DNA of 63,934 nt from a virus. The translations under genes were made by a program, and so were the position numbers. Location of the stretch: positions 1-63,934 of the IMG/VR virus record IMGVR_UViG_3300019360_000003, one strand, 5' to 3'. The notes below the pieces were generated by a model, which searched no databases, was not told the origin of the DNA, and saw nothing but the letters and a program-made list of their open reading frames with translations. Positions 6,728 to 61,552 of the stretch are shown here, one piece after another (within the stretch, counting starts at the first letter, position 1; every line of letters begins with the position of its first letter).

Positions 6728-7068
6728 TGGCGACCGCGCTACGAGCCGCGGACATCGAGTCCCAATACGAGGCTGCGAAAGGCTCCCTTCACGCCCTGGT
6801 CATCGAGCGAGCGCGCCGGATTGTCGAAGAGCCCGATCTCTATTTCGCCCCGGAACAGCGCGACCGCGAGCTGATCTGGCAAATATGGGCGCGCTGGCGA
6901 GAGTTCGCCGCGCTCCACGCGCAATACCTATCCACGCGCGGCGAATACCTGATGCTCGGCTGTCTCATCGGCGAGCACAAAAAATGCAGGCGCGAGATCG
7001 TTCGCGCCGGCGCGCGATTGGTTTGCGGTTGCGCGTGTCATAAAACCCAAGGAGGAACCAATGAATGA
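6727..7068 (+). CDS. Cys-rich hypothetical protein
   Basis: A 113-aa protein sharing TGATG with the previous stop. The N-terminal two thirds are helical. The end carries C..H..C...CGCACH (about residues 80-106), a likely zinc site. No family recognised. It overlaps the start of the DUF3102-like gene by 8 bases, so translation is probably coupled. Confidence 0.55.
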   Translation: MATALRAADIESQYEAAKGSLHALVIERARRIVEEPDLYFAPEQRDRELIWQIWARWREFAALHAQYLSTRGEYLMLGCLIGEHKKCRREIVRAGARLVCGCACHKTQGGTNE

Positions 7069-7990
7069 ATTGATCGAAGCGACCCAACCCGAAGTCGTCG
7101 GTCAGCACGCGCTCTTCGATTACGCGCAGCTCGACCACGACACGCAGATTGCGATCCGGATCAAGACCAGCGAGATCAAATCGCTGGCCAAGCGGATGGC
7201 GGGCGACGTGGTGGAGATCGGCGGGAAGTTGGCCGAGGTGAAGGATCATCTGGGCGGCAACGGCCGCTTCAATGACTGGCTGTCGGCGGAGCTGGGCTGG
7301 AGCGAGCGCACGGCGTACAACTTCATTGCTGTTTGGCAGAAGTTCGGCGCCGCAAATTTTGCGCTGGAGAACGTGGCTACGTCGGCCCTGTATTTACTCG
7401 CCGCGCCGTCTACGCCGGCGGAGGCTGTGGAGTCGGCCAAGCGGATCGCTGAGGAGGGCGGGGAGGTCACGCACGCCGTGGCGAAGGCTATAGTCGAGGA
7501 GGCGAAGCAGGCGCGGCGCGCCAATACCAGGCCGGAGCTCTTCGCGGTGGAAGACGAGGAGCGCGAAGCCGATCAGGAGTCCGCTGAAGCCGCGCCTGCG
7601 GAGCCCGCCGAGGCGTCCAGCGCTGAGAGGCCGCGGGATGCGACGGACAAGACGAACACCAAAGAGATCGAAGCCGCCTGGCGCAAGCATGGCGTCATGG
7701 TCACGATCCAGCTCCTGCCAGCCAAGCACACCGAGCGCCAAGCGATGGTCACGGTTCGCGCCGGCGACCTGGAGCCGCTGAGCAAGGTGAAGCCCGAATC
7801 GGAAGTCATCTTCGTGGGCGCATTGCTTGAGCTGATCGAGCAGTACAAGCGCGAGCTGCCGGCGAAGATAGCAAATCGCAAGCCGGCGCCGAAGACCCCT
7901 GCGAAGTCTTCAGCGAAGCCCGCGCCCAAGGCCGCGGGTAAACAAGCCCCCAAGTCGGCTAAACAAAAACCCGCGAAAGCGCGCAAATAA
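7061..7990 (+). CDS. DUF3102-like protein, possible PRTRC-E-like C-terminal region
   Basis: A 309-aa protein with strong ribosome site AAGGAGG. Residues about 25-110 (EIGGKLAEVKDHL...FNDWLSAELGWSERTAYNFIAV) match DUF3102, a helical DNA-associated domain of plasmids and phages. An acidic linker (about 160-200) joins a small domain at about 205-265 that ends in a Lys/Ala/Pro-rich tail. That second part is similar in style and position to PRTRC protein E, which precedes C in such cassettes. The E assignment is weak. Confidence 0.6.
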   Translation: MNELIEATQPEVVGQHALFDYAQLDHDTQIAIRIKTSEIKSLAKRMAGDVVEIGGKLAEVKDHLGGNGRFNDWLSAELGWSERTAYNFIAVWQKFGAANFALENVATSALYLLAAPSTPAEAVESAKRIAEEGGEVTHAVAKAIVEEAKQARRANTRPELFAVEDEEREADQESAEAAPAEPAEASSAERPRDATDKTNTKEIEAAWRKHGVMVTIQLLPAKHTERQAMVTVRAGDLEPLSKVKPESEVIFVGALLELIEQYKRELPAKIANRKPAPKTPAKSSAKPAPKAAGKQAPKSAKQKPAKARK

Positions 7991-8026
7991 CCGGGCGCTA
8001 TTAAACAAACACGAAGGAGAGTAACG

Positions 8027-8311
8027 ATGGCGAAAATCAAAATCGAAGGGCAAACAATCGAGATGGACGACGAGATCGCCGGCGACGACGAATTGCTGAA
8101 GGCCGCGCTTGCGCCGAGCTGGCCCGACGCGAAGACAGCGACGTTCACGCGAACGGGCGGGAAGGACAAGGAGCTTGTCGTCAGCGTGACTAAAAAGGCC
8201 GGCACGAAGGGCATGGACGACGCCGAGATCGAAGCGCTCTTGCTCTTCGATCGGCGAGAGGAGCGCGAGAAGCGAGACGCCGAGCGCATAAGCGAGAGGA
8301 GGGGCGCATGA
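8027..8311 (+). CDS. PRTRC system protein C, prokaryotic ubiquitin-like protein
   Basis: A 94-aa protein with ribosome site GAAGGAGAG. Residues 1-62 resemble the Prok_Ub/PRTRC-C family, a short beta-grasp protein whose members, as I remember them, end in GTKG. Here GTKG is at residues 59-62 and is followed by a 32-residue charged helical tail. The tail looks like a pro-peptide that the JAMM protease at 10609 could remove to expose a C-terminal Gly. Fold and processing are inferred from family and context. Confidence 0.65.
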   Translation: MAKIKIEGQTIEMDDEIAGDDELLKAALAPSWPDAKTATFTRTGGKDKELVVSVTKKAGTKGMDDAEIEALLLFDRREEREKRDAERISERRGA

Positions 8312-8556
8312 CCGGACTTATCGAGCGCCTGCTCGCCTCCCCCGAGGCCCCCAACCCCGCCGTCGAGATGAGCGCGTGGCTCGCCGAGCTGCAGCGATCC
8401 GGCCAGCTCGATCAGGTCCGCATCCAGGAGTTGCTCCCCGCGATCGAGGCCGCGGCCGACCAGGGCGAGCGCGATCTCGACGGCGCGGGGGCCGCGCGGA
8501 GGAGCCTGGAGCGCGCCGGCGCTATACCATCGAAGGAGGTCCCACTCGGGTTTTGA
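8308..8556 (+). CDS. Small helical protein in the PRTRC cassette
   Basis: An 82-aa protein with an ATGA overlap with protein C. It is rich in Ala/Glu/Leu/Arg and probably helical, with no recognised domain. The tight coupling implies co-expression with the Ub-like protein, for example as a partner or substrate, but nothing in the sequence shows this. Confidence 0.5.
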   Translation: MTGLIERLLASPEAPNPAVEMSAWLAELQRSGQLDQVRIQELLPAIEAAADQGERDLDGAGAARRSLERAGAIPSKEVPLGF

Positions 8557-8557
8557 T

Positions 8558-8866
8558 ATGGAAGGGCTGACCGAAATCCAAGCGTCAAAACTTGCGCTGC
8601 TATCCGCTCATTTGTCTCTGACCGTCCCACTCGCGATTGGCGATCTACAGGCTCGCGGTGGACCGACAAAGACCGATCTTGAGTTCGCGGCAGCCTTCGG
8701 CGCAACGCTCGCTCATAAAGGTGACGTCTTGCTCTACAGAGGCAAGAGGGGCGAAGCGGCTGATTTGGTAAGTCGGCTAGCGCGCGCGCTGGCTGTGCTG
8801 GCCTTCCAGCCTGGTGGCGTTGAGATTTTTGGACTTTGCTTTGAGGCGGAAAAGCGCAATGACTGA
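8558..8866 (+). CDS. Hypothetical protein in the PRTRC cassette
   Basis: A 102-aa protein starting one base after the preceding stop. A GAAGGAGG sequence lies 18-20 bases upstream, farther than usual, so coupling probably drives initiation. Mixed alpha/beta composition with an alanine-rich helix (DLVSRLARALAVLAF). No family recognised. Confidence 0.5.
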   Translation: MEGLTEIQASKLALLSAHLSLTVPLAIGDLQARGGPTKTDLEFAAAFGATLAHKGDVLLYRGKRGEAADLVSRLARALAVLAFQPGGVEIFGLCFEAEKRND

Positions 8867-8877
8867 GGAGGCGATCA

Positions 8878-9129
8878 ATGGACATTGGCGATCCTAAAAC
8901 TGTCGCAGCGTTATTGCTTGGCTTCCCACCAAATAAATTCGAGATCACGAAGCAGATGGTGATTGCTACGCCCCGCGAGTCGGGCGGTCGCTTCGTCGAT
9001 CTCAAGGTGACCGAGCTTAAAGGCGGCCAGCGCCTCTTCGAGGTGGCTTGGCGTGGCGGCCACAAGCGCGTCGCGACTGAGGCTGAGGCTGTGGCTTTGT
9101 TTTTGGAAAAGCTGAAGGCGATTCAATGA
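8878..9129 (+). CDS. Small alpha/beta hypothetical protein
   Basis: An 83-aa protein with a good ribosome site (GAGGAGG, 6-7 bases before ATG). It has alternating strand-like stretches (VDLKVTEL...RLFEVAWRGG) and a C-terminal helix. It overlaps the next gene by ATGA. Unknown function, within the Ub-like cassette. Confidence 0.55.
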   Translation: MDIGDPKTVAALLLGFPPNKFEITKQMVIATPRESGGRFVDLKVTELKGGQRLFEVAWRGGHKRVATEAEAVALFLEKLKAIQ

Positions 9130-9932
9130 CTCGAAAGAAAGCCAAAAAATCGAAGAAGCCCTCCCCTCGCGCCAGCGCCCAGGACGCCGTTCTGCATCTG
9201 CGCCTCATCCAGTACGGGGCGCATATCGTCGAGCTTTACGAGAAGTTTTTCCCCAAGGAGTTCGACGGGATTGATTACAGCTCCTTCGAGGCGCTGCTCG
9301 CGTCGTACGACCGCTTCGCGCTGCTCGTCAACGACAATCTGTTTCCGGTCCACGCGTTCAGCTCGAACGATCTGATGTATGAAGAGCCTGATCACAACCT
9401 CCACACGATGGAGATCTGTTTTCACGGCTTCAGCTCTTTCGTCTGGTTCGACCGCATGAACCACGGCGAGGAGGTATCGGTGGTCGAGAGGATGCTTGTC
9501 TCCGCGGCCGGCTATCACGATTTCCCGATGGTCAAACTCGGGCCGCCTAAAGACCACAGGTTTAGCAGTGAGAAGCTCCAGGAGGTCTCCTGGAAGCAGA
9601 AGGGAATGATCTCGCGCCTGTGGCTCGCGGCGATGGCCGTGCTCGGCGGCACGGGCAACGTATGGCTCGATCTGTCCGAGGAGGAATACTACGCGTCGGA
9701 GCCGCCAGAGTGGAACGAGGCTCAGATCATGTGGCTCGCCAGCGAGTTCAAGGAGGCTCAGAGAGTCTCCGATCAGGTCAACGAGTTCCTCGTCTGGGCC
9801 GACTCGAAGGAGAAACTCGAGCGGATCGAGCGGCTACTCCGCCGGGCGCAGGTTCCGGATAAGCCTATCCGCATGAAGGTCCGGGATCTTCCCGAGGTCC
9901 CACTCGTCGAAGCGTTGGGAGGCGTTTTGTGA
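9126..9932 (+). CDS. Possible PRTRC system protein F
   Basis: A 268-aa protein overlapping the upstream stop. After a basic N-terminus (RKKAKKSKK), the body is alpha/beta. The C-terminal third (GNVWLDLSEEEYY...PEWNEAQIMWLASEFKEA) resembles, from memory, the conserved C-terminal part of PRTRC protein F, and the position between C and B matches the usual order. No catalytic motif seen. The alternative is an unrelated hypothetical protein. Confidence 0.45.
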   Translation: MTRKKAKKSKKPSPRASAQDAVLHLRLIQYGAHIVELYEKFFPKEFDGIDYSSFEALLASYDRFALLVNDNLFPVHAFSSNDLMYEEPDHNLHTMEICFHGFSSFVWFDRMNHGEEVSVVERMLVSAAGYHDFPMVKLGPPKDHRFSSEKLQEVSWKQKGMISRLWLAAMAVLGGTGNVWLDLSEEEYYASEPPEWNEAQIMWLASEFKEAQRVSDQVNEFLVWADSKEKLERIERLLRRAQVPDKPIRMKVRDLPEVPLVEALGGVL

Positions 9933-10618
9933 GTAAACGGGTCTCCAAAAATCTGATCCCCGTGGGTGTGAACCCCCAGGCGGCGATCTACCTGGTCAAC
10001 GACCAATTTCTCCTCGTCGCCAATCGCGACGGCAAGGTCGAGCAGAAGTACGTCAGCCCCGGCGCGGTCCGGAGCGCCTTCGCCGCCGAGCCGGTCGACA
10101 CGGGCTGGATCCCCGAGGGCGTGCGCCGCTGGGGCGTCGGCGCGAAGGGCGTGTACATGCTGCGATGGCATGCGCCGGCGGTGTATTCGGTCTGGCTGCC
10201 GGAGCGCAAGCGCCAGGCGCGCGTCCCGATGCCGGCGCTCGTGTTCTTCGCGCAAGCGAAGGCCTATTACATTTGGGCGATGAGGGGCGACAAGTTCGAC
10301 CCGAAGGGACTGCTCTTCAACGCGCCGTGCGCCAATGTCAACAACCTCGGGCTGATTTGCTGGGGGTCGAATCCGCACCTCGACGTCGCTGAAGGCGGCG
10401 CCTTCGACCGGATGTGGAGCCTCTTTTGGGAGGCGCCGTTTTCCGGCGACCACGAGGCCGGCGCGAACGCGCGCATGGCGGAGCTCGCGCGGAAGAAGGT
10501 CGAGCGGTTTCCGGAGGCCGAATTGACGCCGCTTTCGCATCGGCTCGTGACAGGGCCTTGCACGCTGGAGGCCGTCGTGGAGCGATTTACGAGGAGAGGA
10601 GAAGATCAATGGGGTTAG
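9929..10618 (+). CDS. PRTRC system protein B, E2-like (Prok-E2_D type)
   Basis: A 229-aa protein with GTG start overlapping the previous stop and GGGAGG upstream. Residues 65-160 contain WHAPAVYSVWLPE, VPMPALVFF, a YYIWAMRG strand and LLFNAPCANVNNLGLICWG. These match the core of PRTRC protein B, which belongs to the proposed prokaryotic E2-like families. The Cys in NAPCANV or in LICWG could be the thioester residue, but I cannot tell which. Role inferred: carrier in conjugation of protein C. Confidence 0.7.
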   Translation: MSKRVSKNLIPVGVNPQAAIYLVNDQFLLVANRDGKVEQKYVSPGAVRSAFAAEPVDTGWIPEGVRRWGVGAKGVYMLRWHAPAVYSVWLPERKRQARVPMPALVFFAQAKAYYIWAMRGDKFDPKGLLFNAPCANVNNLGLICWGSNPHLDVAEGGAFDRMWSLFWEAPFSGDHEAGANARMAELARKKVERFPEAELTPLSHRLVTGPCTLEAVVERFTRRGEDQWG

Positions 10619-11304
10619 TGACTGATGTTTTGAATTCGGCCTACGCCGCCGAACCGCCTGCAGTCCTCATCGGCTACCTCCTGAATCAGGAGGAGGGATT
10701 GAGGCCTCCGCCGCAGCGTGGAGGCCTCTACGATTACGTCCTGAGCGCCGACGGTCTCTATCTGCACGCGCGACGTGAGGAGATGGAGGTCAGCTTCCCG
10801 ATCCTGCCCGGGGCCTCAGGAGTAATTCGAGGATTGCGGCCGACTGCGCCTGTCTTCGATTTTCATCTCCCGCTCGTTCCCGCGGGCTTGGTCACCGAGC
10901 TGTGGGCGCAGGCCGAGGACTGGGCGAATCAAGGCCTCGAAACGCTCTTTCATCTCGTCTGGTCGCCAGTCTACCCGTGGAATAACGGGTGGGGACTCGA
11001 TACGCCCGAGCAGGAGCGCTCCGCGACCAGGTGCAAGCCGCTCCACGACGGCCCAGGCTCGTCTCACGAGAAGGCGATCGTCGAGATCCATTCCCACCAT
11101 TTGATGCCCGCGCGGTTCTCGCCGACGGACGACAAGGACGAGACCGGCTTCCGCCTGTACGGTGTGATCGGCCGACTGCCCGAGGCGCCGGAGATCCGGC
11201 TGCGCGTCGGCGTGTACGGTTATTTCTGGGAGATTCCCGCGTCGTGGGCGCTGGAGCTGCCGGAATGTTTGAGGGATTGCAACGCGGAGGACTGGGATGG
11301 CTGA
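10609..11304 (+). CDS. PRTRC system protein A, JAB/JAMM-type protease
   Basis: A 231-aa protein with ATG 10609 inside the end of gene B and ribosome site GAGGAGAGGAG. It carries a full zinc-peptidase signature HSH-x7-SPTD at residues about 161-174 (H161, H163, S171, D174), in a strand context IVEIHSH. JAMM proteases cut isopeptide bonds to ubiquitin or process Ub-like precursors. With Ub-like C, E2-like B and ThiF alongside, it is the deconjugating or processing enzyme of the cassette. Confidence 0.75.
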   Translation: MGLVTDVLNSAYAAEPPAVLIGYLLNQEEGLRPPPQRGGLYDYVLSADGLYLHARREEMEVSFPILPGASGVIRGLRPTAPVFDFHLPLVPAGLVTELWAQAEDWANQGLETLFHLVWSPVYPWNNGWGLDTPEQERSATRCKPLHDGPGSSHEKAIVEIHSHHLMPARFSPTDDKDETGFRLYGVIGRLPEAPEIRLRVGVYGYFWEIPASWALELPECLRDCNAEDWDG

Positions 11305-11544
11305 CTGGAAAGAGCTCCGATACGCGCTCAGCCTGCGCGAGTTCGAGCCGCAGAGCTGGCGGGATTATGCGCTTATTCCCTGGCACGTAGCGGGCTGGCT
11401 ACTCGCTTGCGTCTTGACGGCCCTGCGAAGCCCATTCCTGAAACGGAGCATTTTTATCACCTCCGATGTCTGTCCGCGGCCGCCGCGATGGCGCTCGTCT
11501 TTTCACTGTTGGCGATTTATGAAGCGATGAAGGAGGAGACATGA
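11297..11544 (+). pseudogene. Membrane protein gene with a reading-frame break
   Basis: The ATG at 11297 overlaps the stop of gene A. The first frame encodes a soluble start and one membrane helix (WHVAGWLLACVLTAL), then becomes unlikely sequence. From about 11435 the -1 frame becomes coding-like (IPETEHFYHLRCLSAAAAM, then a second membrane helix) and ends at TGA 11542-11544, which overlaps the next ATG as elsewhere in this operon. A -1 shift at about 11425-11440 restores a two-helix protein of about 82 aa. Mutation, assembly error or recoding are all possible; no classic slippery heptamer is visible. Confidence 0.5.
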
Positions 11545-11804
11545 TCAGATCAATCGCGCCTCCGCCGCCGTGTGATTGTTGCGGGGCGGAGTATCGAAAC
11601 ACCGGCTGCGTGCGTGGGTACGGCTGCGACTGCCCTGGCTTCGCTACTTTTTGTGAGGTCTGCAAATTTTGCATGACGCACTGCCAGTGCGACGAGGCGA
11701 TGAAGGCGGAGTTTTCCGTCGCGCGCGCGGATTACCTGGAGGCGCTGCGGCTGATCAGATGCGCGCATCCGAAACAAATTAATAAAAAGCTGGCGTCAAT
11801 TTGA
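11541..11804 (+). CDS. Cys-rich zinc-binding protein
   Basis: An 87-aa protein with GAAGGAGGAG before ATG. The first 60 residues hold ten or more Cys in CxxC, CxC and CxxCxxC groupings (CDCCGAEY, CDCPGF, CEVCKFCMTHCQC), indicating two or three zinc sites of the treble-clef or ribbon kind. A zinc-finger protein in a ubiquitin-like operon could be an E3-like adaptor, but nothing else supports that. Confidence 0.6.
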   Translation: MIRSIAPPPPCDCCGAEYRNTGCVRGYGCDCPGFATFCEVCKFCMTHCQCDEAMKAEFSVARADYLEALRLIRCAHPKQINKKLASI

Positions 11805-12265
11805 TGACTCAAGAATTGCTTCAATCAATGCGTGAAACCGCAATCACACATCACTGCCGTTTCGCCTTTGAAACCGCGCATCCGCGCTTCGCCCGGCTAG
11901 TCCGCCATCCCGCCGGCGCTACGTCGGCCATCCTAACCGTCAATAGTGGCTATGAGTGACTGGAGGCGGGCTTTGGCGGGCCGGTCTGGCACGCCTCGAT
12001 TGCGGCCCGCGGCAAGCTCTCGCAGGCCTCGTGTTACAACATCGCAAGGCGGATCATCGAAGGGATTGGCGATCCGCTGCGGGAATGGCATGAATGGACC
12101 GGGCGCGCCTTTCATATCCGGCGCCGGCTCACCGCGGAGGAGCAGACGCGCGTTGGTGAGGCGATTGATTGTCGCGGAAAAGCGGAAGGGCGCGAACGCT
12201 TTGAACGGATCTGCGCGGAACTACCCGAGGCGGCGCTTAAATTCGCAATGCAGGAGATTGGATGA
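11804..12265 (+). pseudogene. Gene interrupted by an in-frame TGA
   Basis: From ATG 11804 the frame is open for 51 codons to TGA 11957-11959, then continues in the same frame as clearly protein-like sequence (LEAGFGGPVWHASIAA, then REWHEWTGRAFHIRRRL) to TGA 12263-12265. Together they make a protein of about 152 aa similar in style to conserved phage proteins with a WHxS...EWxE...HxRRRL pattern. TGA is used as a normal stop elsewhere, so this is a nonsense lesion, recoding, or two coupled genes. Confidence 0.5.
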
Positions 12266-12441
12266 GGAGGAGCGGCCACGCGAAGAGTTGGTTCACGTCC
12301 GGAGCCGCCAATGATCGTTGGCGGCAGGCTCTATGTCGGCCTTTGCCGCAAGGTCTGGTGGCGGGGAGTTACGGCAAGGGCGGGATCGGCGCTCAGATCG
12401 TGTGGCTGAGAGCGCAGATGGAGAAGAGTAAGGAGGCCTGA
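12262..12441 (+). CDS. Short ORF in a frame-disturbed region
   Basis: The uninterrupted frame ATG 12262 to TGA 12441 gives 59 aa. However, the protein-like pieces change frame: an acidic stretch ends at 12314, a piece beginning MIVGGRLYVGLCRKVWW starts at 12311, and the last part (SYGKGGIGAQIVWLRAQ) is in this frame. I read it as one or two small genes carrying indels. Function unknown. Confidence 0.3.
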   Translation: MRRSGHAKSWFTSGAANDRWRQALCRPLPQGLVAGSYGKGGIGAQIVWLRAQMEKSKEA

Positions 12442-12444
12442 CTT

Positions 12445-12858
12445 ATGGACATCGAACTGGCGAAAGAGATCACGGCTAAATGCGTCGAGACCTCACTCTC
12501 GCTCACATTGCATGACCGCTACCAGCCTCTGCCAGACATTGAGCTGGCCGACCTGGTCGAAGCGAACCGACTCGTCGCGGAGATGGAGCCTGAGCGGCAG
12601 GCCGACGGTTCCAGGAATCATTACATCCACGTCGACCCGCGTGGGATCGCGCTCCACTACGCGTTCAAGCATTTCGGCCTGTCACCGAATCAAATGCTTG
12701 AGGCGCTGGGGTTCGGCTTTGACGAGGACTGGATCGAGTTCTGCGCTGGCTGCTGGAAGTTCACGCGCAAGGACCTGGTGCGGTTCATGAACGGCCATCT
12801 CTATTGCGAGGATTGCCGGAACTTGCTTAAGGAGCAGGAGAATGCCGAAACCCATTGA
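12445..12858 (+). CDS. Zinc-finger hypothetical protein upstream of ThiF
   Basis: A 137-aa protein with ribosome site TAAGGAGGCC. A helical N-terminal domain precedes CAGCWKF (about residue 98) and CEDCRNL (about residue 120), a four-Cys zinc knuckle. It overlaps the ThiF gene by 17 bases, so the two are co-translated. A substrate-binding or adaptor role in the cassette is possible but only contextual. Confidence 0.6.
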   Translation: MDIELAKEITAKCVETSLSLTLHDRYQPLPDIELADLVEANRLVAEMEPERQADGSRNHYIHVDPRGIALHYAFKHFGLSPNQMLEALGFGFDEDWIEFCAGCWKFTRKDLVRFMNGHLYCEDCRNLLKEQENAETH

Positions 12859-13693
12859 CCTCTCCTACGCCCGGGCCGCGCAACTGTTGCTGCCCGCCTA
12901 CGACCGCCTGCGCCTGATCCTCGTCGGCTGCGGCGGGACCGGGAGCTGGCTCGCGCCGTCGGTCGCGCGGATCGCCAGGCTCCAGCGCGAGCAGGGCAGG
13001 CCTGTTGAGTTACTGTTTTACGATCACGACCACGTCGAGCCCAAGAATATCCCCCGGCAAAATTTCTGCGACGCCGAACTTGGCCGTAACAAGGCCGTCG
13101 CGTTGGCCGCGCGCTTCTCCGCGGCGTGGGGCGTGGAGATCGCGGCGGTTCCGCGAAAATTCCGGGCCGCGTCGTTCGATTGGCCGCAGGCCGGAACCCT
13201 CACGATCCTGATCGGTTGTGTGGATAACGCCGCGGCGCGCGGCGAGATGGCGAGCGTGGTCAAAACGCAAAGGTTCGACCTGCTGCCGGCCTGGTGGCTC
13301 GACTGCGGCAACGAAGAATCCTCCGGCCAGGTGATAGTCGGCTCGACCATTCAGCCGAAGGATCTCGCCGGCTCGTTTACGCCGTCTTGCAAAATTTGCA
13401 AAGCGCTCCCCGCGCCCTCGCTGGTCGCGCCGGATCTGCTGGTCGCGAAGCCGGAGGAGTTGGAAGACTCGAAGGTGTCCTGCGCCGAGATGCAGGTACT
13501 CAACGCCCAGAGCCTGGCCGTGAACCAGACGGTCGCCGCCATCGCGACGGATTACCTACTGGGGCTCCTCGGCGGGAAGTTGCGAAAATTCGCAACTTAT
13601 TTCGACCTGGCGAGCGGGTCGATGAGGTCGAAGTATATAACCCCCGAGGAGATCACCGGCGCGATCAGGCGGCCGCCGGCGTATTTGATCTAG
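12842..13693 (+). CDS. PRTRC system ThiF-family E1-like adenylyltransferase
   Basis: A 283-aa protein with AAGGAG upstream. The nucleotide-binding loop GCGGTGS is at residues 30-36, followed by FYDHDHVEPKNIPRQNF (about 59-75) with the Asp that binds ATP-Mg and the conserved N..RQ. ELGRNKA follows, then WLDCGNEESSGQVIVG and a CKIC pair near residue 183. This is the ThiF/E1 fold that adenylates the C-terminal Gly of Ub-like proteins. It completes an E1-E2-Ub-JAMM set. ParB and protein D of the canonical cassette were not found. Confidence 0.8.
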   Translation: MPKPIDLSYARAAQLLLPAYDRLRLILVGCGGTGSWLAPSVARIARLQREQGRPVELLFYDHDHVEPKNIPRQNFCDAELGRNKAVALAARFSAAWGVEIAAVPRKFRAASFDWPQAGTLTILIGCVDNAAARGEMASVVKTQRFDLLPAWWLDCGNEESSGQVIVGSTIQPKDLAGSFTPSCKICKALPAPSLVAPDLLVAKPEELEDSKVSCAEMQVLNAQSLAVNQTVAAIATDYLLGLLGGKLRKFATYFDLASGSMRSKYITPEEITGAIRRPPAYLI

Positions 13694-51020: not shown

Positions 51021-52049
51021 TCACATTCTGATTCTGAACAGCAGTTTCAGCGACTCTCTTATCGGAAGATAAGCGATTTTGTGGAAAGCGCCTTTCGGCG
51101 CGAACCGAACGACAAGAATACAATACAGCCATTTCAGAGATTCTTTCCAACGCGGGCTTGCGCGAAAGGCGTTTTTCAGAATTTGAACACCAACTTCCAA
51201 ATATCCAGCGTCAATCAATCGCACCGCGCAATGCCCGTCATAACCGTCGAGTGTTTGCTGGATGGCGCGAACAAGCGATTGATCGGAAGCTGATTCGCGC
51301 CATTTGCGCCGCAGTTTCCAAATCTGCGCCTCCATGAGCGGGGAATTCTGGCTCGCGCTTTCAGTGTGCAAACGAATCACGGATAGCGTTCCTTCCATGT
51401 CTAAATACTTAAACTTTGCGCCATGCAAGGCGCAACGGAACCAGTAGTCCCAGTCTTCGACTGGGGAGACAGTCCAATCGAACAGTCCCACCCGATCAAC
51501 CATCCCCCGCCTCAGCAATGGAGCGCTGACTACCATGATATTCGTTTTTACCAGCGCTTCGAGAATGGGCTTCCCCGAGCCTGAGACTTCAAGCATCCAG
51601 GGCGCGTCAGTCTGCGATAATGAGCGCGTTTCAGCGTCTATTACTAAAAATGAATACCTCTGCTCCTCTGGGTACTCTGTTCTGAAATATCGGACGCTCC
51701 CATAAACAATATCCACGTCCGGATGATCGTCCAGATACTGAGCGTGACATAGAAGCTTTCGCGGCTCGATCAGGTCGTCCGCGTCGAGGAACTGGATGTA
51801 TGCGCCCTTGGTCAGCGTTAGCCCCTTGTTTCTGGCCTGCGCAACCCCGCTGTTTGCTTGATAGATATAGAGAATCCTGCCGTCTCTTTTGGAAAAGCTT
51901 GCCACGACCTCCGCCGTGTTATCCGTGGAACCGTCATCAATGACTATGCATTCCCAATCCTGATATTGCTGCTGTAAGATGGATTCTAAGGTCGCGGGAA
52001 GGAACGCGCCATAATTGAATGCGGGAATAATAATACTAACAGCGGCCAT
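51021..52049 (-). CDS. Glycosyltransferase family 2
   Basis: A 342-aa GT-A fold enzyme: SIIIPAFNYG at 5-14, VIDDGSTDNT near 35-44, QFLDADDLIEP near 86-96 (DxD metal site) and a WDYWFR segment near 200. It transfers a sugar from an NDP-sugar to a surface glycan. Base composition is visibly more AT-rich than flanking phage genes. Nine bases separate it from the Wzt gene, so they form an operon. Probable transferred cargo for lysogenic conversion. Confidence 0.85.
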   Translation of the reverse strand: MAAVSIIIPAFNYGAFLPATLESILQQQYQDWECIVIDDGSTDNTAEVVASFSKRDGRILYIYQANSGVAQARNKGLTLTKGAYIQFLDADDLIEPRKLLCHAQYLDDHPDVDIVYGSVRYFRTEYPEEQRYSFLVIDAETRSLSQTDAPWMLEVSGSGKPILEALVKTNIMVVSAPLLRRGMVDRVGLFDWTVSPVEDWDYWFRCALHGAKFKYLDMEGTLSVIRLHTESASQNSPLMEAQIWKLRRKWRESASDQSLVRAIQQTLDGYDGHCAVRLIDAGYLEVGVQILKNAFRASPRWKESLKWLYCILVVRFAPKGAFHKIAYLPIRESLKLLFRIRM

Positions 52050-52058
52050 ATTAGCCCA

Positions 52059-53312
52059 TCACCCAATCGACCATTTGGATCGAACAAGCATCTTCCCTCG
52101 AAGGGGAAGGATTTCTTTCCCATTGTTATAAAAATCGCTGGAGATCACTGTAAAAGAGGTGAAATTGATCAAATCATCCATTTCCCGCGCTCCTCGGTCT
52201 CCAACCGTAATTGTTAAGCAGTATTCTCCGGGCGCTAAGGATAACTCTTCGATCTCGCATAGGATTTTCGTCTCTCTCTCTATAGCGGGCAACGCTGAGG
52301 CCGATAAATAGGTGGCGACAGTGAAGATCCTTGCTCCTAAACTATCGTTGATTCCCACGCCGATCTCAGGCTGATTTAATAGCGCGGCGGGATTGAGAGT
52401 GATTTCAAGGATGATTTTTTCCCCGGATGCAAAGATAGATTTGGGATGACCATCATTCTCGAGTAATCGAACGAAGGTAATTAGATGTGCGCTTCCTGTT
52501 TGGCGAGCTGGATGGGTAGTAACATCTATACTTCCTTCTTGCAACTCGTGATGCCGCATGTTGTAAAGCTTTAACCCGGCCTCCGTGGCTCCATGATATT
52601 CGATTTTACCATTCGCCAGGAGAATAACCGTGTGGCATAGGTACTGTATTGCGGTCAAATTATGGCTAACGAAAAAGATGGTTCTGCCGTGGCTGCCCAC
52701 CTCTCTCATCTTGCCGATACATTTATTCTGGAATTCCGCATCTCCTACCGCTAAAACCTCATCCACCAATAAAATCTCCGGCTCCAGATGCGCGGCCACA
52801 GCGAAAGCCAGACGCATATACATTCCGCTGGAGTAATGTTTGACTGGCGTATCGATGAACTTATCGATCTCGGCAAAGGCGACAATTTCATCAAGCCTGC
52901 GATCAATCTCATTCCGTTTCATCCCCAGGATCGCGCCGTTCAAATAGATGTTCTCGCGCCCCGACAGCTCCACGTGGAATCCCGTGCCGACTTCGAGCAG
53001 GCTGCCGACGCGACCATAGATGTCTACCTGACCGGTGGTCGGATGCGTGATCCGAGACAGGATTTTGAGCAGTGTGGATTTGCCCGCGCCATTGCGTCCA
53101 ATAACGCCCATGATTTCGCCTGGCTTAATTTCGAAACTGACATCTTTCAATGCCCAGATCGTATTGTCCTGGCGATTTCCATTTCGCCGGAGCCAGCCGA
53201 AAGGGAAGCGTAATGTTTCGGCGATTGAATCGCGGAGCGTCGGAAAGGACGCTTGTCGCGCGCCAATGCGGTATTGTTTGCTCAGGTTTTCAACCTTGAT
53301 GATCGGTTTCAT
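52059..53312 (-). CDS. ABC-2 exporter ATPase, Wzt type (O-antigen/polysaccharide export)
   Basis: A 417-aa protein; ATG 53312 chosen (a TTG two codons upstream is less likely). Walker A GRNGAGKST near 72-80, signature YSSGM near 160, Walker B ILLVDEVLA near 182 and H in FVSHN. Residues 250-417 are the beta-rich carbohydrate-binding domain of Wzt that selects capped O-antigen. No permease (Wzm) partner is in the window, so it would pair with a host permease or compete with the host Wzt. AT-richer, like the adjacent glycosyltransferase. Confidence 0.85.
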   Translation of the reverse strand: MKPIIKVENLSKQYRIGARQASFPTLRDSIAETLRFPFGWLRRNGNRQDNTIWALKDVSFEIKPGEIMGVIGRNGAGKSTLLKILSRITHPTTGQVDIYGRVGSLLEVGTGFHVELSGRENIYLNGAILGMKRNEIDRRLDEIVAFAEIDKFIDTPVKHYSSGMYMRLAFAVAAHLEPEILLVDEVLAVGDAEFQNKCIGKMREVGSHGRTIFFVSHNLTAIQYLCHTVILLANGKIEYHGATEAGLKLYNMRHHELQEGSIDVTTHPARQTGSAHLITFVRLLENDGHPKSIFASGEKIILEITLNPAALLNQPEIGVGINDSLGARIFTVATYLSASALPAIERETKILCEIEELSLAPGEYCLTITVGDRGAREMDDLINFTSFTVISSDFYNNGKEILPLRGKMLVRSKWSIG

Positions 53313-53480
53313 AGACAAGCGGTCTGGCGACTCACGATTCCAAATTAATTGGCTGTTGGATGATCTCCAAAATAAATGAGCGCTCCTTTCGGCGCGCTCG
53401 CTTCGGCGGCGTCCTCAGCCATTAGGGTATTTACCGCCGCCAGTTTGCAGAAGAGAGCCGTCCGGCTTTGCGGTTAGGGC

Positions 53481-54761: not shown

Positions 54762-55628
54762 TCAATCCTCCGATTTTATCAGATAGCTCGCCGTAGACTC
54801 GACCGGATTCACATCCAAGTAAATCTGCGTGGTTGAAAGGCTCTTGTGCCCAAGGTCTCGCTGGATCAGGGGCAGCGGGGCGCTGTTCTTCAATCCCTCC
54901 GTGGCGAAGGAATGCCTGAGCCAGTGCGGAGACGCCGCCCAATTTGCGCCAGATCTTTTCGCCGCGGCTTTCACGATCCGGTAGACCTGCTGGCGCGTCA
55001 TCCCTCCCGCGTCTTTCTGCGAAGTGAAGACGCGGTCCTTGGCTTGGCCGCCGGATTGCCGCCGGTATTCTATCAACTCCTGGTAGAGCTCCGCTGTGAC
55101 GCCCACGGTTCGGTTCTCGCCGCCTTTCCCGAACAGCGCCAACTGGCCGCCGCTATATTCGTTCGACTGAACGTCCTGCCAGCGCAAGCCGGTCAGCTCC
55201 GACACGCGAGCGCCGGAGAAGAAGAGAGTCTTCAGTATTAAGCGGTCACGCTGCGTTTTGGTCGCTGAGATTAGCTTTTCGACCTCGGCGCGGCTGAGCA
55301 CGCGCGCCCCGCGGTCATCCTTGCACTTCGGCAACTGAATTCGCTTGGCCGGGTTCGCGCCGATCAACCCTTCCTCGGCGGCGAAAGAGAAGAGGCTTTT
55401 GACGGCCGTCAGAATTCTTTGCTTCGTTTTCTCAGCGTAAGGCTTTCCATGCTTCGTTTTGATCGAATTCAGCCGCTCCTGGAATTGCTGAAGATCGCGT
55501 AGTTCGATCTCGGGGAGCGATTTCTTCAGATGGTCGCGCAACAGTAGGATGTCGCCGGCGTAGGCCTCCCGCGTCCGCTCGCTACGCTGACTTGAAAGCC
55601 AAAGGTCAATGATTTGATCGTCGTTCAT
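54762..55628 (-). CDS. Tyrosine recombinase, XerC/D-like
   Basis: A 288-aa protein; ATG 55628 has AGGGGA 8 bases upstream. The N-terminal SAM-like domain is followed by the catalytic domain: GARVSELTGLRW (Arg), HWLRHSFAT (His-x-x-Arg), LGHKSLSTTQIYLDV (His and Tyr nucleophile). The small size is like Xer or mobile-element recombinases. It could resolve multimers of a plasmid-like form or drive integration. Second recombinase in the window. Confidence 0.85.
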   Translation of the reverse strand: MNDDQIIDLWLSSQRSERTREAYAGDILLLRDHLKKSLPEIELRDLQQFQERLNSIKTKHGKPYAEKTKQRILTAVKSLFSFAAEEGLIGANPAKRIQLPKCKDDRGARVLSRAEVEKLISATKTQRDRLILKTLFFSGARVSELTGLRWQDVQSNEYSGGQLALFGKGGENRTVGVTAELYQELIEYRRQSGGQAKDRVFTSQKDAGGMTRQQVYRIVKAAAKRSGANWAASPHWLRHSFATEGLKNSAPLPLIQRDLGHKSLSTTQIYLDVNPVESTASYLIKSED

Positions 55629-55722
55629 GGGTGAATCCCCTGCGTACAAAAGTGTAGCTATGTAACATTCTGGGTTTCTCGCGTATTCGCGGCGACTGCG
55701 TCTCGCACTTCAGGCCGTTACG

Positions 55723-60306: not shown

Positions 60307-60350
60307 AAGACCAACTGTAAATCGTTTATTTACAATTGGTCTTATTTTTA
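60307..60350 (+). terminator. Hairpin with T-rich tail at the integrase 3' end
   Basis: AAGACCAA.TGTAAAT pairs with ATTTACA.TTGGTCTT, followed by ATTTTTATT on the plus strand. It overlaps the last codons of the integrase gene. It could stop rightward transcription into the integrase. Confidence 0.55.
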
Positions 60351-61552
60351 TTGGCCAATTTTTGGCCATTCCCGTTTAACCTGGCCGCCTCCACGGCCTC
60401 GATCGCTACGACTGCTCGAGCCGCGGATTCTGGCGTCACGTGGCTATAATGCAACACGAGCTCCCGGTCAGTATGGCCCGTGATGTCGCCGACCGTTCGA
60501 AGGTCCAGTCCGCTCTGTAAGAGCTTGGTCGTGAAGGTGTGGCGCGCGCAGTAGAGCACGAACCCTTCGGCCGAGTCCCGCCCGTACTCGATCCCGACCG
60601 CCTCGGCCGCCTCGCGCAAGATCCGGTAATGCTTCGGCGTGGGATTGCCGCCGCGGCTGAAGATATAGTCACGCTTTGTCGCGAATTCGCGCTGCTCCTC
60701 GACGCTCTCGATGAGTGGCGCTGTCAGGGGTACATATCGAGTCGAGGGCGTCTTCGTCTCCGTCTTGGTCCCACGCACCCGGATCCGCCTATTGTCGTAA
60801 TCCACGTCCGCCCATTTCAGAAGAAAAATCTCTTTCGGCCGCATCCCTGAGTTCATCGCGAAGCGCAGGACCGCCGCGACCCGGAGCCTCGCCCGCCTGG
60901 CGTTCGCCTTGTCCTGGACTCGCGTCCCGTCGCGCTCGTCGGCCGGGCGGCTCAAGTGATCGAGCAGGCGGCGGTATTCGTCGTCGCTGATGATTCGCTC
61001 GCGCCGGCTCTTGCTCACTTTGGGGCGCGGGATCTTCGGCGGGCGCCACTGCGCGAGCTCCGGGAAGAACTCAGCGACTGAGTTAAGCGCGGCGGCGATG
61101 ATATTGAGTTCGCGATTGATCGACGCCGCCGCTTGGCCGTCAGCCTGGCGGCGCTCGACGTAGAGGCGGATGAGCGGCGTCGTGATCTCGTCTATCTTGA
61201 TTCCCGCCGGCAGGAGATCGAGCCAGACTCGGAAGACTCTGGTCGCGCGCGTCCGCTCCGCGCGGAGCTCGATGCCTGGCGTCCGGAGATCGATGAGCTC
61301 TTTCAGCGCCGGGCGCTTGATCGGCGCGGCCAAGCCGAATTTCGCCTCGCGCTCGGAGCGCCGGAGCGCGGCGAGCGCCTCTTCGGCCTCCTTCCGGCTC
61401 TCGAATTGATAGATACGCATTCGCCGCTTGCCGCCCCTGCCATCCGAGACGCGGACGTCGAAGCCCCAGCGCTTCTTTTTGGCTTTTTTGGAATAGCTCT
61501 GCCCGATCGGGCCTTCGCGGCGCCTGGCTTTCTTTTCTCGATGCTTGAGCAT
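60326..61552 (-). CDS. int: Phage-type tyrosine integrase
   Basis: A 408-aa protein. The N-terminus is very basic (KHREKKARRREG), with an arm-binding region (RWGFDVRVSDGRGGKRR), a SAM-like core-binding domain, then the catalytic residues: SGMRPKEIFLLKW (Arg), ARHTFTTKLL (His-x-x-x), GHTDRELVLHYSHV (His and Tyr). Length and arm domain mark it as the site-specific integrase for lysogeny, in contrast to the smaller Xer-like recombinase at 54762. Confidence 0.9.
   Translation of the reverse strand: MLKHREKKARRREGPIGQSYSKKAKKKRWGFDVRVSDGRGGKRRMRIYQFESRKEAEEALAALRRSEREAKFGLAAPIKRPALKELIDLRTPGIELRAERTRATRVFRVWLDLLPAGIKIDEITTPLIRLYVERRQADGQAAASINRELNIIAAALNSVAEFFPELAQWRPPKIPRPKVSKSRRERIISDDEYRRLLDHLSRPADERDGTRVQDKANARRARLRVAAVLRFAMNSGMRPKEIFLLKWADVDYDNRRIRVRGTKTETKTPSTRYVPLTAPLIESVEEQREFATKRDYIFSRGGNPTPKHYRILREAAEAVGIEYGRDSAEGFVLYCARHTFTTKLLQSGLDLRTVGDITGHTDRELVLHYSHVTPESAARAVVAIEAVEAARLNGNGQKLANKNKTNCK

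Follow-up and report, generated by a model that had tools for sequence, protein, structure and literature searches.

A predicted ubiquitin-like conjugation cassette of the PRTRC/type 6d kind in a temperate tailed phage and its relatives

The IMG/VR virus record IMGVR_UViG_3300019360_000003, analyzed here over its full 63,934 nucleotides (the window), carries an intact gene cassette at positions 7061 to 13693 that encodes an E-like protein, C, an F-slot protein, B, A, and ThiF. Judged from its gene content, the cassette holds as one of the PRTRC/type 6d kind, in which a ubiquitin-like (Ubl) tag is accompanied by an E1-like enzyme, an E2-like enzyme, and a JAMM protease. The original prediction for this DNA, made from the letters alone, had placed C, B, A, and ThiF in one plus-strand run; the open reading frames (ORFs) bear this out, and the motifs it listed were confirmed (HSH-x7-SPTD, GCGGTGS, and N..RQ, the last reading NIPRQ). 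It had named these four genes as members and missed the E-like gene, the F-slot gene, and the gene for a small helical partner designated x (Table 1). Chance motifs or an unrelated operon were ruled out, as more than 100 loci keep both the gene order and the catalytic residues. A profile scan identified terminase, portal, capsid, tail, and integrase genes in the window, which mark it as a temperate tailed phage and rule out a misfiled plasmid. The proposal of a PRTRC-type set on a phage is thus supported by both profile matches and hallmark genes.

The original prediction had also proposed profile searches, and these placed all three enzymes in the expected families. B matched PF14460 Prok-E2_D (5.7e−22; 78.7 bits, cut-off 25) and, below the cut-off of 131.45, TIGR03737 (1.4e−14; 54 bits). 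Its Cys144 was kept in the alignment in all 49 viral and all 79 other homologues, and downstream of the Cys, where type 6d E2-like proteins have a conserved His, B carries SGDHEAG, with H or D at that position across homologues. A matched PF14464 Prok-JAB (4.4e−6; 27.0 bits, just above the cut-off of 25) and TIGR03735 (1.6e−10; 40.8 bits, below the cut-off of 101.8). The JAMM residues of A were among eight invariant alignment columns, and the JAMM Glu was kept in 46/46 viral and 71/71 other homologues (the alignment is numbered from position 10606, so one is subtracted for the protein starting at 10609). ThiF matched TIGR03736 PRTRC_ThiF (6.2e−41; 140.3 bits, just below the cut-off of 144.75) and PF00899 (1.2e−12), and its profile matched eukaryotic E1s, ThiF, and MccB in the PDB. 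Cys214 was kept in 53 of 53 viral and 88 of 88 other homologues. The adenylation residues D61, R72, K84, and D128 were kept in every sequence except that of Vibrio phage D69, whose ThiF frame as annotated has no N-terminal part but still contains D128.

Support for C came at the family level. The window C had no NCBIfam or Pfam match of its own in a direct profile search; among 47 aligned family members, 26 matched TIGR03738 PRTRC_C and 21 matched PF14454 Prok_Ub, and hhalign comparison of a window-like C profile with canonical PRTRC_C gave a probability of 95 (P = 2e−8). In the structure prediction called for earlier, the AlphaFold2 model showed a strand-strand-helix-strand-strand arrangement followed by a tail helix at moderate confidence (predicted local distance difference test [pLDDT], 73; predicted template modeling score [pTM], 0.40), and a fold search with it against the PDB gave no significant match, ubiquitin, SUMO, and other ubiquitin-fold chains being weak matches only. 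PADLOC model C3a152 (“Type III-C specific”) matched the window C at 4.6e−6; because of this match the model may itself contain a Ubl protein, and it was not counted as a sign of a known defense system.

The conserved KKAGTKG of the window C ends at residue 62 and is followed by a 32-residue helical tail. A KG end was found in 110 of 114 aligned C domains, a count favored by the trimming of the C model at that point. Beyond the KG, C ended exactly at the Gly in 19 loci, carried a short tail in 17, and was fused to x in 51, with other tails, including the 32 residues of the window, in 20. Tandem, polyubiquitin-like C domains were present in Bacillus phage vB_BauM_KLEB27-3 (four near-identical copies; L014:664-1413, L numbers denoting loci of the comparison) and Vibrio phage D69 (three diverged copies; L013:2385-3176), each repeat ending G(T/V)KG. 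Such varied extensions (tails, x fusions, and repeats) are as expected if a protease must expose the Gly, and the cassette includes a gene for the JAMM protein A. The repeats and extensions parallel polyubiquitin, and the proposed processing parallels that of BilA by BilC (PMC11354881), cleavage in the cassette being predicted.

Of 90 loci detected with a hidden Markov model of x, 51 had the domain fused directly behind the KxGxKG of C, as in L015, and 39 had it as a separate gene; a C-terminal Gly-Phe was found in 83. No known family was matched by x. It is read here as a new cassette partner, not described before as far as the literature found extends.

Table 1. Positions of the cassette genes and other features of the window
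Feature	Position	Strand	Details
O-like replication initiator	5106		Near the cassette
E-slot protein	7061-7990	+	DUF3102 (residues 30-102), C-terminal PRTRC-E-like domain, Lys-rich tail
C, ubiquitin-like modifier	8027-8311	+	94 residues; family-level PRTRC_C/Prok_Ub matches
x, helical partner	8308-8556	+	About 80 residues; ATGA start overlap with C; ends PLGF
Small ORF	8558-8866	+	102 residues; inside operon
Small ORF	8878-9129	+	83 residues; inside operon
F-slot all-alpha protein	9126-9932	+	268 residues; position of PRTRC F, before B
B, E2-like transfer enzyme	9929-10618	+	229 residues, GTG start; Cys144 in NVNNLGLICWG
A, JAMM/JAB metalloprotease	10609-11304	+	231 residues from ATG; HSH-x7-SPTD and upstream Glu
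Inserted stretch between A and ThiF	11297-12441	+	Small ORFs; 11541-11804 Cys-rich
CxxC...CxxC zinc-binding-like protein	12445-12858	+	137 residues; C-terminal motif; common only to window and L015
ThiF, E1-like activating enzyme	12842-13693	+	283 residues; GCGGTGS, NIPRQ, candidate catalytic Cys214
Terminase large subunit	22296		Phage hallmark
Portal	24027		Phage hallmark
Head protease	25676		Phage hallmark
Major capsid	26785		Phage hallmark
Tyrosine integrase	54762-55649	−	
Tyrosine integrase	60326-61552	−	

The protein in the E slot matched PF11300 (2.5e−8). Its C-terminal part matched a profile built from E domains fused to ParB and the free-standing ones of Nostoc (E value, 1.7e−9) and weakly resembled canonical PRTRC E (hhalign, 48%; P = 1.8e−4). 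The same slot in related phages holds a ParB (ParB_N plus helix-turn-helix [HTH]) fused to a similar E-like domain, which Nostoc encodes as a gene of its own. Fusions of ParB with the PRTRC-E-like C-terminal domain were seen at L002:3897-5081, L016:6025-7329, L027:4952-6694, and other phage loci, whereas ParB and E are separate adjacent genes in canonical plasmids. The original prediction had the system apparently lacking its ParB and D partners; neither PRTRC_D nor ParB_N was indeed detected, but the ParB slot is filled by the DUF3102-E protein. Structural support for E and C is moderate.

In the first set of loci, 44 ORFs were conserved members of the F-slot group, and AlphaFold2 modeled the window protein as all-alpha (pLDDT, 84; pTM, 0.78). 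No profile or hhalign support was found for canonical PRTRC F: none of 41 F-slot proteins matched TIGR03742, and hhalign against canonical F was empty. The model, which had no fold match in the PDB or BFVD, possibly represents a new fold.

The cassette had been called unusual in a phage, a view that needs revising, since it occurs in three cultured phages and, counting the window, in at least 33 IMG/VR records with hallmark genes. IMG/VR was scanned for ThiF with one protein sequence as query and also with an alignment; together the two scans gave 50 distinct loci. A terminase or portal match was found in 33 of 51 records, counting the window (phrog_2 terminase in 22, phrog_12 portal in six more, and phrog_38 terminase in a further five); records without such a match may be fragments or plasmids. 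Cultured phages with ThiF and recognizable A, B, and C were Burkholderia phage BgVeeders33, Vibrio phage D69, and Bacillus phage KLEB27-3. The C-F-B-A-ThiF order was present in nearly all viral loci not cut by contig ends and in 53 of the 86 loci of a second set made up of genome contigs, canonical plasmids, and the window. This order recurs in dozens of other phages and in plasmids, which suggests that a system so far known from plasmids has long belonged to phage biology.

The closest ThiF relatives not from viruses were encoded on Acidobacteria metagenome-assembled genome (MAG) contigs (57% and 50% identity), on plasmids and contigs of cyanobacteria, and on contigs of Chloroflexota. Of the MAG contigs, the best (L059) carried terminase, portal, and head genes 5 to 9 kb downstream of its cassette and a 64%-identical gene matching the terminase-small-subunit-like position of the window. 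Given these phage genes and this identity, an Acidobacteriota host is likely for the window phage, whose nearest relatives would be phages of Acidobacteriota.

The cassette is under purifying selection between phage pairs: nonsynonymous-to-synonymous substitution ratios (dN/dS) of close pairs were 0.04 to 0.42, apart from a single outlier (0.69) in F, which evolves fast. Across 35 viral cassettes, the pairwise distances of C, B, A, and ThiF correlated at 0.70 to 0.82, a level reached in 0 of 999 permutations, and the genes are co-inherited across deep divergence. The ThiF tree, built by a quick method without bootstrap and with several long branches, contained purely viral groups of 17, 9, 6, and 4 rows. 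In it, the window grouped with L015 and L059 (Shimodaira-Hasegawa-like approximate likelihood ratio test [SH-aLRT], 96) within a mixed clade of phages, MAG contigs, and cyanobacterial plasmids. Among 98 genes flanking 28 viral cassettes, ParB HTH (11), ParB_N (6), and DUF3102 (6) domains were found, along with DnaC-like loaders, O-like initiators, DnaB, primase, and single-stranded-DNA-binding protein.

A type 6d Ubl operon was predicted in 2006 by Iyer, Burroughs, and Aravind (PMC1779556, Table 1 row 6d). That row lists a small Ubl protein with a C-terminal Gly, a largely alpha-helical protein, a Cys-bearing E2-like protein, a JAB protein with an N-terminal domain, and an E1-like protein (PMC1779556). 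The window has this composition, with a 32-residue tail behind the Gly of C. Among the organisms of the row is Anabaena, which belongs to the cyanobacteria, as do the nearest plasmid hosts found here. Type 6d is described there in bacteria, and in the part of the paper available phages figure only through the lambda/T1 tail-assembly proteins TAPI/TAPK (row 5); its type 6d description, within that part, does not include the x partner, tandem C repeats, or the ParB-E fusion (PMC1779556).

PRTRC plasmids (TIGR03734-TIGR03742), such as pMOL28 of Cupriavidus metallidurans (L139), share with the window a mobile replicon, homologous C, B, A, and ThiF, and the same (ParB/E slot)-C-F-B-A-ThiF order; canonical plasmid cassettes start with ParB and E, the full order in pMOL28 being ParB-E-C-F-B-A-ThiF. 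The window set differs in being phage-borne, in scoring below every PRTRC equivalog cut-off, in having DUF3102 in place of ParB with E fused, in an F-slot protein not detectably homologous, in the extra x after C, and in having no PRTRC_D. By profile scores it fails a strict NCBIfam definition of PRTRC on several points: A and B lie under their cut-offs, ThiF lies just under its own, and F, ParB, and D are lacking. The most fitting description is a variant of the 6d/PRTRC kind that forms a phage branch. The cyanobacterial plasmids Nostoc pn3 (L008), Pseudanabaena pPg_04 (L010), and Leptolyngbya pLBX (L009) had the ThiF proteins closest after those of phages and MAG contigs (45 to 49% identity), the same C-F-B-A-ThiF order, and the same x domain ending GF. 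They differ from the window in that the plasmid regions examined showed no virion genes and that, in Nostoc, E is a separate gene. On pn3, a Hachiman HamA defense gene lies about 8 kb from the cassette copy (L008:18292 onward).

No literature on phage-borne PRTRC was found in a search that covered few subscription journals, so its absence is not proven; a survey of 224 jumbo phages names no E1-like, E2-like, or JAB set. As far as could be found, this would be the first recognized complete E1-E2-Ubl-JAMM set in bacterial viruses, a Bacillus phage among them having a gene that resembles polyubiquitin. Many tailed phages, three of them cultured, carry it as a stable module and so offer tractable systems for testing type 6d/PRTRC Ubl proteins, and its replication and partition setting gives a strong hint of their context.

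There is an even chance, in our judgment, that the cassette constitutes a phage-encoded, reversible Ubl conjugation system with DNA-maintenance proteins as its most likely targets. Protease A would trim the extension of C after ...GTKG, whether a tail, a fused x domain, or the next repeat. ThiF would then use ATP to adenylate the exposed C-terminal Gly of C and hold it as a thioester on Cys214, from which C would move to Cys144 of B, and B would join it to target lysines. The F-slot protein, x, and the E-slot protein would probably serve as scaffold or adaptor for the B step, and A could later take C off the target. The likeliest target would be the E-slot DNA-binding protein (ParB-E in relatives, DUF3102-E in the window) or the neighboring replication initiator or loader. 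While the components, their order, and the intact catalytic residues are read directly from the DNA, the relay, precursor processing, and conjugation are predictions, the target most of all. Tagging of DNA-maintenance proteins is favored over attack on host or rival-phage proteins, whose modification the original prediction had raised as a possibility, because the neighbors are replication and partition genes, and a role in replicon maintenance or replication is suggested because phages and plasmids share ParB/E and the replication setting. The comparative data argue for the ParB/DUF3102-E protein as prime candidate target or adaptor.

Several points weigh against this assignment. The neighborhood may reflect early expression rather than function. 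Backing for the C fold is confined to a moderate-confidence model that drew no significant fold match, and a PDB sequence search with A, B, and C identified no related solved structure. In the searchable literature, as far as found, type 6d/PRTRC Ubl proteins have no tested function or solved structure, no family member having been assayed. Within the sensitivity of the profiles, the window has no ParB_N domain or TIGR03734 match (ParB was matched in 14 of 51 related records) and no TIGR03739 PRTRC_D match (four of the 51 matched, every one below the cut-off). The F-slot protein and x are also without an assigned function.

A broader proposal is more tentative and held with less confidence: tailed phages may long have carried a full Ubl pathway as core DNA maintenance, with a polyubiquitin-like precursor in some and a co-processed x, PRTRC plasmids being one offshoot. 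The ParB/DUF3102-E protein or the replisome would then be tagged reversibly by a system common to phages and plasmids.

It is unlikely, though worth weighing, that the phage uses C to tag host proteins, for example those of bacterial immunity, and so inactivate or redirect them. The cassette does lie in the early/replication region beside the O-like initiator, and a phage version is plausible because Bil and type II CBASS already put bacterial Ubl conjugation in phage-host conflict (PMC10097602, PMC11354881). However, the cassette is common on cyanobacterial and proteobacterial plasmids, which need no such takeover, and its co-inheritance over deep divergence and its site by partition and replication genes rather than variable accessory sites fit poorly with counter-defense.

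Less probable still is that a prophage turns the set against rival phages or plasmids in the manner of Bil or CBASS Cap2/Cap3. These systems share E1, E2, and JAB logic and Ubl modifiers with the window, which is temperate with two integrases, and its ThiF is similar to the E1 portion of E1-E2 proteins of the CBASS type (PADLOC E1-E2, 7.5e−9; NF058523, 1.6e−7). They are, however, host defense operons with E1/E2 architectures unlike those seen here. The PADLOC matches to ThiF were partial (E1-E2, 7.5e−9 at best) or weak (BilD, 0.0014), and no PADLOC model, including those of conjugation defense systems, matched B or A; with matches limited to ThiF and to C3a152 for C, a known defense system was rejected. 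Moreover, the operon is of type 6d and not 6a/6b/6e, and it has no fused E1-E2, CD-NTase, or metallo-beta-lactamase partner.

Sulfur transfer by C and ThiF as a ThiS/MoaD-ThiF pair, in place of tagging, is improbable: ThiF is homologous to ThiF/MoeB and Gly-terminated beta-grasp proteins can undergo thiocarboxylation, yet an E2-like protein with an invariant Cys and a JAMM protease accompany ThiF, the top flanking families included none for thiazole, molybdopterin, or rhodanese, and C ends KG rather than GG. Passive carriage of a plasmid-acquired cassette with no phage role is very doubtful and disfavored, for although one part of the ThiF tree mixes phage with plasmid sequences, the purely viral clades, the purifying selection between phage pairs, and the intact catalytic residues speak against it.

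Neither small ORF between x and the F-slot gene matched a known family; the first had no tblastn match in L015 or L059, and the second had no tblastn match and is absent from L015. The stretch between A and the zinc-binding-like gene has no counterpart in the closest relative, L015, and the contents of the A-to-ThiF gap vary between loci (e.g., L026, L027, L030, L138, and the window), so that it looks like inserted cargo at a variable insertion spot. Judged by eye, a group II intron reverse transcriptase seems to lie in the gap of L138. The zinc-binding-like protein shared 45% identity over 131 residues with the product of the L015 gene in the same position. It is not claimed as an E3, since its zinc-finger/RING matches were weak (E value, 0.005 to 0.009) and the protein itself is present only in the window and L015.

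Elsewhere in the window, the two tyrosine integrase genes lie about 5 kb apart within a single phage. A GtrB-like glycosyltransferase gene adjoins an ABC-transporter-ATPase-like gene at 51021-53318 (−), on the strand opposite to the structural genes, and these may be lysogenic conversion genes.

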